The notes below the pieces were generated by a model. The model was not told where the DNA came from and searched no databases. It saw only the letters and a list, made by a program, of their open reading frames with translations. This document shows, in pieces, positions 15,161 through 20,685 of a stretch of DNA of 33,869 nucleotides; positions within the stretch are counted from its first letter, which is position 1; each line of letters starts with the position of its first letter. The stretch is taken from contig JAGQNA010000009.1 of assembly GCA_020428315.1 (NCBI GenBank), positions 1-33,869 on the forward strand, written 5' to 3'. The DNA is from Candidatus Saccharimonadota bacterium. Lineage in GTDB: Bacteria; Patescibacteriota; Saccharimonadia; Saccharimonadales; Saccharimonadaceae. The position numbers and the translations under genes are program-made.

Positions 15161-16261
15161 TTAGGCTATAAGATCAAGGCGCCTCTTGATCTTCATTGCT
15201 AGCTCTGGATCCCACATTGCTCCGGTTACAGACTGGACGACATCCGCACCAGCCTCTCGGTACTCTATAAAGTCGCCAGGTTCCATCACACCACCAACCC
15301 CGATGATTTCATAGTCATAGTTTTTTGCTTTACGAAGCGTGTCAAGGCGTCGTACCATGTCTATTCCGGCCCATTTCACACTAGCTCCACACACACCGCT
15401 CCGATTACGACCTTTGCCTGGTAGCGCCTGCTTTCCACTCTTATTTAAAATCTCCCCTTGTAAAGTATTTATCGCACTTATTGCCGATACGAAGTTACTT
15501 GTACTGTCAACAATTCTCTCCAATAGAGCTTGCTGATCGTGACTAAAATAGCCGATTTTTATTACTAGTGGAACATCGCCGATAGCAGCTTTCGTTTGTT
15601 TACAAATTTCAAATACGGCGTCTGGCGAGTAACAAATTACACCCTCACTGGCGACATTTGGACACGATAAGTTGATTTCGATCACTTTTGCACCGGCTTC
15701 TTTTGCATCTTGAGCCGATCTTGCAAAGTCAGCGTAATAGTCTTCAGCAGTAAACCCTGGCTGTATCGTGCCGACTACGCTCATAATCAATAGCTGGCCT
15801 GCGTGTACGCCAGTCTGAGCCTGCTGAAAGTCATTCATCCATACTGACGGCCCGTTAGAAGGTACTCCGAATGAGTTTGTTATTGAAAGTTGACGTAAGT
15901 CAGTAGGGTAGTCATCTCGCACAAAAATTGGTTTTTCAAGCTTGTCTAGCGTTAGGTCTCCTTCTATCTGAAGCGGTAGTATATTCGGGAATGGATTACA
16001 CGGGAATTCAGTTGATCTCTGGGTCTTATACACTACGACGTCAAAGCCAAGACAAAATGCAGCTGTAGTGTGTCGCGAAGTTGGCAGCGAACCAGCAGCG
16101 ATCCCAAACGGTGAATAAATCGGAAAACCCAGAAAACTATAGCTAGGTCTACCGTGTGGCTCTACATAATTAATATTTCCGACATCATACGGTCCAGTAA
16201 GATAATTGTCTTCGTAGCTCTTTAGCGGATCGAACAGTATAGGCTTTGAACCAGATATCAT
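15161..16261 (-). CDS. pyrD: Dihydroorotate dehydrogenase
   Basis: PyrD oxidises dihydroorotate to orotate with FMN. The 366-residue protein has the FMN-binding N-terminal region (SPFGIAAGSLP), the substrate motif ITNSFGVPSNGPSVW (127-141) and INLSCPN with Cys200. A cysteine there is typical of soluble class 1 enzymes, where membrane class 2 enzymes have serine. It also has the late GVGGVMEPGDFIEYREAGAD phosphate-binding part. It is divergent from pyrF-pyrE, only 20 bases separating the start codons, so the three genes make orotate and convert it to UMP from one control point. Class assignment rests on the cysteine and is moderately sure. Confidence 0.92.
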   Translation of the reverse strand: MISGSKPILFDPLKSYEDNYLTGPYDVGNINYVEPHGRPSYSFLGFPIYSPFGIAAGSLPTSRHTTAAFCLGFDVVVYKTQRSTEFPCNPFPNILPLQIEGDLTLDKLEKPIFVRDDYPTDLRQLSITNSFGVPSNGPSVWMNDFQQAQTGVHAGQLLIMSVVGTIQPGFTAEDYYADFARSAQDAKEAGAKVIEINLSCPNVASEGVICYSPDAVFEICKQTKAAIGDVPLVIKIGYFSHDQQALLERIVDSTSNFVSAISAINTLQGEILNKSGKQALPGKGRNRSGVCGASVKWAGIDMVRRLDTLRKAKNYDYEIIGVGGVMEPGDFIEYREAGADVVQSVTGAMWDPELAMKIKRRLDLIA

Positions 16262-16284
16262 GATTATAGTATACTATAGTCATG
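16259..16284. promoter_or_regulatory. Palindromic divergent promoter bounded by the pyrD and pyrF start codons
   Basis: The 20 bases between the two ATG codons hold the perfect 14-bp palindrome TATAGTATACTATA (16265-16278). Including both start codons, the symmetry extends to 26 bp with one mismatched pair (CATGAT versus GTCATG). Overlapping TATAGT/TATACT hexamers occur on both strands. The plus-strand TATAGT at 16265-16270 ends 11 bases before pyrF, and the minus-strand equivalent (16278-16273) ends 11 bases before pyrD. Confidence 0.7.
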
Positions 16285-17007
16285 ACTCCAGATAGAATCA
16301 TTGTGGCAGTGGATGTTGACGACCTAGACCAGGCCCATAAGCTACTAGATGAGCTGCGCGGCACAGGTGTGACTATCAAATTCGGCAACCAACTGGGGAC
16401 CTACATAGGCTGGAAAAAGGCAATTGAACTTGGTCAGCTGTACGATTCAGCAGTGTTTTGCGATACAAAATATAAAGATATTCCGAAAACTATTGAGCTT
16501 TCTTCACGGGTAATGACACGACTCCAGCCAGCCATGTTTAACATCATGGCAGACAATACTCCCGAGGCATTAACCGCAGCTACCGCTGGAGTAGAGTCGG
16601 CTATACAGGATTTCAAACTAGACAGTAAACCATTGCTACTTGGAGTTACTGTCCTCACCTCGTTCACGGACCAAGATGCTATACAGGTCTATGGTGGCCC
16701 AGCAATTGAAAAAGTACAACAATTTGCAGCTGCTGCAGCAACGGCTGGACTCGATGGGCTAGTTTGCTCACCTCACGAGATTAGACAGCTTAAATCTAGT
16801 CCAGAAACAAGTCACCTAGTGCTAGTTACGCCAGGCATAAGACCAGACTGGTCAGATAAGGGTGATCAAAAGCGGATAATGACACCAGCGACAGCCGTGT
16901 CTGCTGGTGCCGACTACTTAGTTATTGGACGCCCCATTACCAATCCACCAAGTTCAATCGGTAGCCCAAAGAATGCAGTACAAAAAATTATGGAGGAGAT
17001 AAATTAA
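16282..17007 (+). CDS. pyrF: Orotidine 5'-phosphate decarboxylase
   Basis: PyrF decarboxylates OMP to UMP. The 241-residue TIM-barrel protein shows RIIVAVDVDDLDQA at the first strand, IKFGNQL with Lys33, and the catalytic CDTKYKDIPKT (Asp61, Lys63, Asp66), matching the D-x-K-x-x-D-I signature. It also shows LLGVTVLTSF, LDGLVCSPHEI, VTPGIRPDW and GADYLVIGRPI for the phosphate site. The TAA stop overlaps the pyrE ATG by one base. The start codon is within the palindromic promoter, and no ribosome binding site can exist on a leaderless mRNA. Confidence 0.97.
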   Translation: MTPDRIIVAVDVDDLDQAHKLLDELRGTGVTIKFGNQLGTYIGWKKAIELGQLYDSAVFCDTKYKDIPKTIELSSRVMTRLQPAMFNIMADNTPEALTAATAGVESAIQDFKLDSKPLLLGVTVLTSFTDQDAIQVYGGPAIEKVQQFAAAAATAGLDGLVCSPHEIRQLKSSPETSHLVLVTPGIRPDWSDKGDQKRIMTPATAVSAGADYLVIGRPITNPPSSIGSPKNAVQKIMEEIN

Positions 17008-17624
17008 TGTCAAACATATCACAAGACACACTTGATGTCGTGGCAAACGAACTTAGTGAACATGGATTAATCAAATTTGGTGAGTTCAAACTAAAAAGCG
17101 GCTTGCTCTCACCATTCTATATTGACTTACGAGAAGTTCAGTCATATCCAACTGCTCTAAGATCTGTCACCAGGGCATATGCTGAACTTATTGGTGATAA
17201 AACTCAGGATTTACTACTAGCAGGTATCCCAGAGGCCGGTGTACCGTTAGCTACAGCTGTTGGCTACGAACTGGGCATACCACTAGTTCAACCACGCAAG
17301 CTAGTTAAGGATCACGGTACAAAAAGTGCAGTTGAAGGCGCATACAATCCTGGCGATCATGTTATTCTAATCGATGACCTAATTACGAAAGGTGATTCAA
17401 AGATCGAGGCGATCGAACAGGTTAGTTTGGCTGGTTTAGTAGTTGATAAGTTTTTAGTGCTAATTGATCGAGAACAAGGTGGAATCGAACTACTTAAGCA
17501 AGAAAAAAATTGTCAAGTTATTGCTGCTTTCACGATCACTGAGCTAGTAGACACTCTCAAGCAATCTAGTAAAATTTCAGACGAACAATACCAAACAATT
17601 ATTAGCTTCATACAAAATAATTAA
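17007..17624 (+). CDS. pyrE: Orotate phosphoribosyltransferase
   Basis: PyrE joins orotate to PRPP to give OMP, the substrate of PyrF encoded just upstream. The 205-residue protein has KLKSGLLSPFYIDLRE near the N terminus, the flexible catalytic loop with KLVKDHGTKSAVEG and the PRPP motif VILIDDLITKGDS (119-131). A GGAGG site lies about ten bases before the ATG, inside pyrF, and the genes overlap by one base (TAATG). No transcarbamylase or dihydroorotase is present in this window. Confidence 0.96.
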   Translation: MSNISQDTLDVVANELSEHGLIKFGEFKLKSGLLSPFYIDLREVQSYPTALRSVTRAYAELIGDKTQDLLLAGIPEAGVPLATAVGYELGIPLVQPRKLVKDHGTKSAVEGAYNPGDHVILIDDLITKGDSKIEAIEQVSLAGLVVDKFLVLIDREQGGIELLKQEKNCQVIAAFTITELVDTLKQSSKISDEQYQTIISFIQNN

Positions 17625-18630: not shown

Positions 18631-19990
18631 TACCTTATCGCGCCAAACCGAAGAAATAAAACCGCTAGAAGCACGTAAAATTCGGATGTACACCTGCGGT
18701 CTTACTGTCTACTCTCAGCCCCAAATCGGTAACTGGGTTGCTTACATTTATTCTGATATCCTAACTCGGACCTTAATAGCTAATAAATTTGACGTTTATC
18801 GAGTACAAAATATAACGGATGTTGGCCATCTGGTAAGCGATGATGATGGTGGTGAAGATAAAATGGAAAAGGGTGCTCGCCGTGAAGGTCTAACGGCATG
18901 GGATGTAGCTAAAAAATATACTGAAATTGCTGATCATGAAGGCTATGAATTGCTTGGACTGCTACGACCGAACCAGCTAATTCCAGCCACCAGCTTAATA
19001 GACAAGCAGATAGAGTTTGCCCAAGAGCTCAGCGACAAAGGCTACCTATACAAGATTGATGATGGTATGTATTTCGATACGTCAAAACTAACGGACTATG
19101 GAAAGCTCGCTCGTCTTGACATCGCCGGCCTACAAGCCGGAACACGAGTGGACATGACAGGCAAAAAGAACGTGACCGATTTTGCAGTTTGGAAGTTCAG
19201 TCCTACCAGTCAAAAACGTGATATGGAATGGGACAGTCCGTGGGGCAAGGGCTTTCCTGGTTGGCATCTAGAATGTTCAGTCATCGCCCGTGAATCGCTC
19301 GGAGACCAGCTAGATATTCACACTGGCGGCATTGACCATATTCCAGTTCATCACACTAATGAGATTGCCCAGACAGAAGCCGTAACAGGCAGACAATTTG
19401 TCAAATATTGGTTTCATAACAATCACCTAAAAGTGAATGGCACGAAACTATCTAAATCTCTAGGCAATAGCTACACACTACAAGATATCACCAATAGAGG
19501 ATATAGTCTTGACGCCTTCAAACTACTGGTATTGTCCAGCCATTATCGGACTGAGGGCAATTTCACCTGGGAAATTATGCAGGCTGCACAAAACCGTATC
19601 AATAATTGGCAGGCCATCGCCGATCGTCGCTGGCAGACAGAAATAGTATCAAAGATTCAACCAGATATTTCAACGCAGATCATTGCCAAATTATCTGATG
19701 ACATTGACACGCCAGGAGTACTTTCGGTAATCGACAGATACTTTAATAACATAAACGAATCTAATACCGCGCCAAGCCCAGATAGTCTGCAAACGATCCA
19801 CAAGATCCTTGGCATCAACCTATTACAAGCCGATATTAGTGATAGCCAAAAGAATTTGCTAGCACTCCGCAATAAAGCACGTAACGAAAAAGACTGGCAA
19901 ACGTCAGACAAGTTACGAGCCAAGTTATTAAATCAAGGAATTGGGGTTCACGATTTATCGATCGGACAAGTATGGTACCGATCCGCCTAG
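18617..19990 (+). CDS. cysS: Cysteinyl-tRNA synthetase with altered HIGH motif
   Basis: CysRS charges tRNA-Cys. The 457-residue protein begins KIFNTLSRQTEEIKPL like other CysRS. It keeps the zinc ligand in YTCGLTVY, WHLECSVIARESLG, the HTGGIDHIPVHHTNEIAQTEA region and the KLSKSLGN (KMSKS) loop. The HIGH signature reads QIGN (in SQPQIGNW): Gln replaces the first histidine and Asn the last. Asn there is common; Gln is unusual to my knowledge. The zinc site appears intact, unlike in RecR and DnaX. The TAG stop overlaps the stop of the convergent gene in the tetramer CTAG. Confidence 0.95.
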   Translation: MKIFNTLSRQTEEIKPLEARKIRMYTCGLTVYSQPQIGNWVAYIYSDILTRTLIANKFDVYRVQNITDVGHLVSDDDGGEDKMEKGARREGLTAWDVAKKYTEIADHEGYELLGLLRPNQLIPATSLIDKQIEFAQELSDKGYLYKIDDGMYFDTSKLTDYGKLARLDIAGLQAGTRVDMTGKKNVTDFAVWKFSPTSQKRDMEWDSPWGKGFPGWHLECSVIARESLGDQLDIHTGGIDHIPVHHTNEIAQTEAVTGRQFVKYWFHNNHLKVNGTKLSKSLGNSYTLQDITNRGYSLDAFKLLVLSSHYRTEGNFTWEIMQAAQNRINNWQAIADRRWQTEIVSKIQPDISTQIIAKLSDDIDTPGVLSVIDRYFNNINESNTAPSPDSLQTIHKILGINLLQADISDSQKNLLALRNKARNEKDWQTSDKLRAKLLNQGIGVHDLSIGQVWYRSA

Positions 19991-20685
19991 CTGCTCAGCA
20001 CCCACCGAGCGACCAAATCCTTAACTCTGCGATATTCCGATTCCTCCAGCTGAATGTTTGCAACACAAAACTTTCGACTAGCTAGATGCGTACAAAATAG
20101 ACATTCGTAAAGATCGTAGCAGTCTTGAATAAACATACTACTTGTTATCTTATTTGACCATATTACACTAAAGCTATTTTCTACATGCTTACTGTCTTCG
20201 ACTCGAATACTATCCTTGCATGATTTTGAGGTTTGTCCTGCAACTACTGACTGACATGATTCTAGTCCATCACTAAATAAAATATTTTTAGATTTTCGAA
20301 TATTAATTGACCTATACACACCCTCAGATGAGTAGATACCGTCACTTTCAGCAACGTTCTTGGATGCCATCTGTCTTTCACTCATTGACAGATTTATTTT
20401 ATTCCATGCAGTAAGTATATGCTCAATCGTGCTTAAATCCTGCTTAGCCTGCATTCCTTCATTTACACTAAGACGCTTCTCGACATTTTTACGAGTAATA
20501 TAACGCTGCTGACCCATGCTTGCTGCCCAGCTGGGCTGTTTGTCAATCTCATCATACACTTGTTGAGGCAAACGTACATCAAATGCAAATTTTGTCATAG
20601 CCTGTTCAAGGCTCAGCGGATTCTGATAGCTAAAAATATTCCCGACAATATTATCAAGTAGTTGTTTCGCAACGACATTATCCAT
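19987..20685 (-). CDS. Ser/Cys-rich short-repeat protein, unknown function
   Basis: The 232-residue protein has a helical N-terminal half. From about residue 118 comes a run of short repeats with Ser or Cys at roughly every sixth position (VYRSINIRKSKNILFSDGLE, ESCQSVVAGQTSKSCKD, SSMFIQDCYDLYECLFC), ending in ASRKFCVANIQLEESEYRRV. This pattern suggests a narrow beta-solenoid. From memory it resembles the C-terminal repeats of proteins in Patescibacteria sometimes annotated CaiB/BaiF family, whose function is also unclear. A perfect AAAGGAGGA site precedes the ATG, which overlaps the upstream ATPase gene by 8 bases, so the two are tightly coupled. Stop codons overlap with cysS. Confidence 0.75.
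   Translation of the reverse strand: MDNVVAKQLLDNIVGNIFSYQNPLSLEQAMTKFAFDVRLPQQVYDEIDKQPSWAASMGQQRYITRKNVEKRLSVNEGMQAKQDLSTIEHILTAWNKINLSMSERQMASKNVAESDGIYSSEGVYRSINIRKSKNILFSDGLESCQSVVAGQTSKSCKDSIRVEDSKHVENSFSVIWSNKITSSMFIQDCYDLYECLFCTHLASRKFCVANIQLEESEYRRVKDLVARWVLSS

Follow-up and report, generated by a model that had tools for sequence, protein, structure and literature searches.

A probable bidirectional promoter for two predicted leaderless genes, pyrD and pyrF, in Saccharibacteria

In divergons with a dimeric repressor, the divergent genes share a palindromic operator that lies between them. Bidirectional promoters with −10 symmetry represent another known arrangement (Warman, Grainger, and colleagues; PMC12825309, PMC10268837). 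In these, −10 elements on opposite strands overlap, with −7T opposite −11A, and one polymerase binds in either orientation to the exclusion of the other, the two starts being at most tens of base pairs apart. The separation of the starts in E. coli has a mode of 18 bp, with 10 and 23 bp also common (PMC12825309, PMC10268837), and 18 bp is the mode rather than a requirement (PMC12825309). Leaderless genes are equally well known: TA-led genes, which account for a considerable share of genes, carry a TANNNT −10 element approximately 10 to 12 bp before the start codon and lack a Shine-Dalgarno sequence (Zheng et al. 2011, PMC3160421).

In the window (the whole stretch of 33,869 nucleotides analyzed here), pyrD and pyrF, divergent genes of a single pathway, have a palindrome in the gap that separates them, as in a divergon with a shared palindromic operator. 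We read this palindrome, with a probability of about 0.8, as a bidirectional double-leaderless promoter, in which two overlapping −10 elements each start an mRNA at their own ATG. Overlapping −10 elements on opposite strands and use of one polymerase in either orientation would be shared with the known bidirectional promoters, and the −10 spacing and lack of a Shine-Dalgarno sequence with TA-led genes. Unlike the known bidirectional promoters, both products are predicted to be leaderless protein-coding mRNAs with start codons inside the symmetric element, the two predicted starts lie 21 bp apart (15 and 23 bp in related cases), not at the 18-bp mode of E. coli, and the overlap is TATA on TATA rather than −7T opposite −11A. 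Two leaderless genes here share one symmetric −10 region, unlike TA-led genes, and, unlike a divergon of the kind described above, the locus has no adjacent regulator that we could find, no regulon of near-copies, and an arm spacing that is not fixed in relatives. The literature searched, with most subscription papers outside reach, contained no double-leaderless symmetric promoter having both start codons inside, using registers other than the E. coli mode, and recurring in many genera of Saccharibacteria, nor any report of a leaderless signal for Saccharibacteria.

The two genes are pyrD (15161 to 16261, minus strand; 366 amino acids), encoding a member of the dihydroorotate dehydrogenase (DHODH) family (Pfam DHO_dh), and pyrF (16282 to 17007, plus strand; 241 amino acids), encoding an orotidine-5′-phosphate decarboxylase of the TIGR01740 type (Pfam OMPdecase). 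Both start codons are consistent with the N termini of homologues. The start codon of pyrE (orotate phosphoribosyltransferase; 17007 to 17624, plus strand) overlaps the pyrF stop codon by one base, and pyrF and pyrE are likely cotranscribed. The window pyrD falls below every NCBIfam cutoff for DHODH subfamilies (best score, 86.7 bits versus 269) and has close relatives throughout Patescibacteria, and it possibly represents a distinct DHODH subfamily.

The symmetric element, CATGATTATAGTATACTATAGTCATG, occupies positions 16259 to 16284 on both strands. It ends in the two start codons, on the left CAT for pyrD (minus strand) and on the right ATG for pyrF (plus strand), and the ATGs are separated by exactly 20 bases (16262 to 16281). 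Symmetry extends over 12 of the 13 pairs (24 of 26 positions) and is perfect over the central 14 bp, TATAGTATACTATA (16265 to 16278). Coordinates, sequence, gap length, and symmetry are all as described in the earlier note and proved correct. The near-palindrome is real and far from chance. Symmetric pairs number 3 to 9 of 13 across the CAT-N20-ATG sites of the same genome (n = 182; 760,527 bases), the pyrD-pyrF site alone reaching 12, and only ten 26-mers of whatever kind in those 760,527 bases have 12 of 13 symmetric pairs. A further 26-bp near-palindrome, TATACTTAAACATTTGTTTAAGTATA (L049, 7183 to 7208; G000:C5), is A+T rich, unlike most other high-symmetry 26-mers of the genome, several of which resemble terminator stems.

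Each direction of the 26-mer reads TATACT-N6-ATG with C at −1. The −10 element of pyrF lies at 16270 to 16275 (plus strand) and that of pyrD at 16268 to 16273 (minus strand), both 6 nt 5′ of the ATG, and they overlap through the self-complementary TATA; the overlapping −10 hexamers noted previously on each strand are thus TATACT on both, with TATA shared. Within the 14-mer, the hexamers are joined by −15T/−6A and −13G/−8C, bases that serve both strands simultaneously. The symmetry would arise from the demands of this lineage's −10/initiator motif: when leaderless genes stand approximately 20 bp apart, the −15T and −13G preferred by one promoter pair with −6A and −8C on the opposite strand.

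The same signal is widespread in the genome. In 761 kb with 643 called ATG-starting open reading frames (ORFs), the last base of TATANT lies 6, 7, or 8 nt 5′ of the ATG in 39, 33, and 29 genes, respectively (101 in total), 9 or 10 nt 5′ in 12 and 10 genes, and at every other spacing in 0 to 8 genes. A pyrimidine at −1 is present in 94% of the spacer-6 class, in which TG or GG precedes the hexamer. Stretches from two other genera (G071 and G015) have the same spacer peak at 6 to 8. In its strict form, TATANT-N6..8-ATG, the signal is found at approximately 11 to 16% of ATG genes in the own genome and the G071 and G015 stretches. Applied to genes with this signal, the criterion given by Zheng et al. 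2011 (PMC3160421) predicts that they are leaderless, and the spacer-6 pattern is the classic initiator pattern, with the A of ATG as the predicted +1. The palindrome is read as two overlapping −10 elements because TATACT-N6-ATG with C at −1 in both directions matches this leaderless signal. Scores for the leaderless motif are 10.9 bits for both pyrF and pyrD (median for the leaderless set, 11.2), a value reached by approximately 5% of all starts. The 20-bp gap contains no GGAG/AGGA-like Shine-Dalgarno sequence in either direction. TG at −15/−14, found in approximately half of the leaderless set, is absent from both genes.

From the −10 spacing and the pyrimidine (C) at −1, transcription of both genes is predicted to be of the leaderless class and to start at the A of the ATG, at 16282 (plus strand) for pyrF and 16261 (minus strand) for pyrD. 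RNA polymerase would meet two σ70-type −10 elements placed head to head and overlapping through TATA and would bind in one orientation or the other, presumably never in both together. In each orientation, RNA would begin 6 nt past the respective −10, giving pyrD and pyrFE mRNAs with no 5′ leader, and pyrD and pyrF output may be coupled through the shared promoter. Pairs of this kind are therefore predicted to compete for polymerase. A consensus promoter scan of the region returned 3 promoter-like matches, compared with 3.2 in shuffled sequences. A weak −35-like hexamer, TTGAAC, is present for pyrF (16246 to 16251, plus strand; 18-bp spacer) within codons 4 to 6 of pyrD, and pyrF has T at −18; pyrD has neither a recognizable −35 nor this T. 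Our guess from these motifs is that pyrF may be the stronger side.

Divergent order of pyrD and pyrF is kept across Saccharibacteria, where the genes, if both occur, are often divergent, whereas in most of the other Patescibacteria sampled the two are either collinear or widely separated. Both pyrF and window-type pyrD are patchily distributed within the family. Relatives were sought in genome contigs with a pyrD alignment; a scan with a single pyrF sequence gave none, and a search of the genus listed the own genome alone. Overlapping −10 elements are kept in six genomes with pyrD-pyrF gaps of 20 to 24 bp. Besides the window, these are G419 (22 bp; CATGATTGTAGTATATACTAAAATCATG, 13 of 14 pairs symmetric), G435 (23 bp; CATGCCTATAGTATACTATAGCTAGTATG), G400 (24 bp; CATTACTTATTACTATACTAAGTTACGATG), G267 (24 bp; CATAACTTCTTACTATACTAAGTGACAATG), and G223 (23 bp; CATCTCTATAACTATACTAAAGGCAAATG), each with a −10 on both strands 6 to 9 nt from the ATG and with overlapping hexamers. 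Arm symmetry fades with distance: the arms are kept in G419, with 2 bp more between them, and lost in G400, G267, and G223, in which perfect symmetry at the center spans just 4 bp. Conservation across Saccharibacteria, which the earlier note had proposed as a check, is thus found for the overlapping −10 elements at short gaps but not for gap length or for the symmetry of the outer arms, both of which vary. In several relatives with longer gaps, pyrD is preceded by a Shine-Dalgarno-like sequence, and a single TATA-rich core separates the genes.

The promoter design is the same in G223, yet its pyrF is closest to TIGR02127 rather than TIGR01740. Across Saccharibacteria, pyrF genes of these two types (16282 to 17007 in the window; L039, 2715 to 3539; L301) face the same kind of pyrD. 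Since two pyrF types stand opposite the same kind of pyrD, the divergent arrangement seems to have outlived a gene replacement, persisting despite the difference in pyrF type between lineages.

The layout is also found at other gene pairs. Of 394 family genomes, 98 contain the pattern CAT-N6-ANTATANT-N6-ATG, compared with 29 for the reversed control. Genes (ORFs of at least 90 codons) open on both sides at 20 of 29 inspected loci with this 20-bp pattern, and at 1 of 20 loci in the register giving the E. coli start separation of 18 bp, where loci are mostly one-sided; the loci compared are those that the search listed and were not drawn at random, and orthologous gene pairs recur among several of them, so that the contrast is strong but is not an exact rate. 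Two-sided loci come from many genera, and their gene pairs are functionally unrelated: M1 peptidase/GmrSD_C, DUF520 (YajQ)/PAP2, DUF520/glycosyl hydrolase 3, CarS-like/diacylglycerol (DAG) kinase, ddl/mgsA, hydrolase/RNase H, HIT/membrane protein, YjbR/unknown, and pyrD/pyrF. Two-way leaderless promoters are, to judge from these patterns, most likely a real and recurrent compact design in Saccharibacteria rather than a one-off repressor site. The earlier suggestion that a single symmetric element recruits polymerase in either direction is therefore supported in silico, in a more specific form than proposed: both −10 elements stand at 6 nt from the ATG, the genome's leaderless configuration, their overlap is kept in short-gap relatives, and the layout recurs elsewhere.

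The earlier note had also proposed a repressor operator bound by a dimer. A dimeric regulator that binds the promoter palindrome as well (half-site approximately CATGATT..TAGTA), covers the promoters and start codons, and represses both genes would account for symmetry over 24 of 26 positions. It would also account for the outer arms, whose symmetry is 5/6 both in the window and in G419; this is above what the motif requires, and the promoter reading alone is not a full explanation. Discriminator composition predicts approximately 2/6, by a hand estimate from base frequencies that gives a chance of approximately 0.02 per site, the window and G419 being related and not independent. Nevertheless, such an operator is unlikely. 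A scan of both strands of the genome gave a single copy of the 14-mer, and the sole near-copy, with one mismatch, lies upstream of a pilM-like gene and is itself a −10 region, the gene being leadered; the proposed search for the palindrome as a regulator site elsewhere thus returned a promoter element, and an operator regulon was rejected on this single near-copy. No DNA-binding regulator family was recognized in a scan of ten of the neighboring ORFs between 12450 and 23833 (one of the ten, ORF 19987 to 20685, gave no match), although a regulator need not adjoin its target. The 2 extra bp between the arms in G419, the loss of arm symmetry in G400, G267, and G223, and the presence in other genera of the same core at gene pairs with no shared function also argue against an operator. 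Near-copies, neighboring genes, and arm conservation therefore leave the proposal with little support.

Less probable still than the operator is a promoter that truly works in a single direction, with the mirrored −10 a by-product and the other gene transcribed from elsewhere. Known bidirectional promoters often yield a noncoding divergent RNA (PMC10268837), the TTGAAC at −35 and the T at −18 belong to pyrF alone, and the same TAGTATACTA core lies close to pyrD only in both G427 and G456. Against this stand the exact leaderless spacing and −1 C in both directions, the retention of both −10 elements in the other short-gap relatives, and the genes opening on both sides at the 20 two-sided pattern loci. 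A structural role (RNA hairpin or cruciform), for which either strand of the 26-bp near-palindrome might fold, is highly improbable and was rejected, as the element is A+T rich and, with starts at or near the ATGs, would not be transcribed, and as relatives conserve −10 spacing rather than pairing.

The bidirectional double-leaderless promoter would combine the principle of leaderless genes with that of bidirectional promoters in a divergent control region close to the minimum possible size, a design recurring at many gene pairs of a reduced and mostly uncultured bacterial group, and it predicts the positions of many transcription starts in Saccharibacteria. More tentatively, a single −10 palindrome with two start codons may be the whole control region and such regions a recurrent, selected class in Saccharibacteria, in which the choice of orientation would couple the two outputs inversely with no dedicated regulator.

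When the leaderless motif was scored against itself in reverse complement at every start separation, gaps of 14, 20, and 22 bp came out best (6.0, 4.7, and 5.8 bits, respectively), followed by 25 bp (3.5 bits), in a post hoc model built on 134 promoters and with few test cases. The 20-bp register yields TAGTATACTA. Intergenic lengths of 14, 20, and 22 bp are accordingly predicted to be favored, and all three are observed, at M1/HNH and pyrD/pyrF in the own genome and at pyrD-pyrF in G419, respectively. The 14-bp case, CATATATACTAGTATACATG (G000:C67:26069-26088; L127, 6069 to 6088), separates genes for an M1 aminopeptidase and a GmrSD_C/HNH protein, with 18 of 20 positions symmetric and a −10-to-ATG spacer of 7 rather than 6. 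The description of the pyrD-pyrF gap as among the most compact divergent control regions consequently needs qualification, a shorter one being present in the same genome. In other genera (L085, L088, L093, L105, and L107 to L109), the gaps of the M1 aminopeptidase-GmrSD_C/HNH pair are symmetric and 20 bp long. A CarS-like gene (CDP-archaeol synthase family) and a DAG kinase-like gene, identified by Pfam in L100 and by sequence resemblance in L101, L102, and L106, face each other across a 20-bp symmetric promoter at these four loci, which represent several genera.
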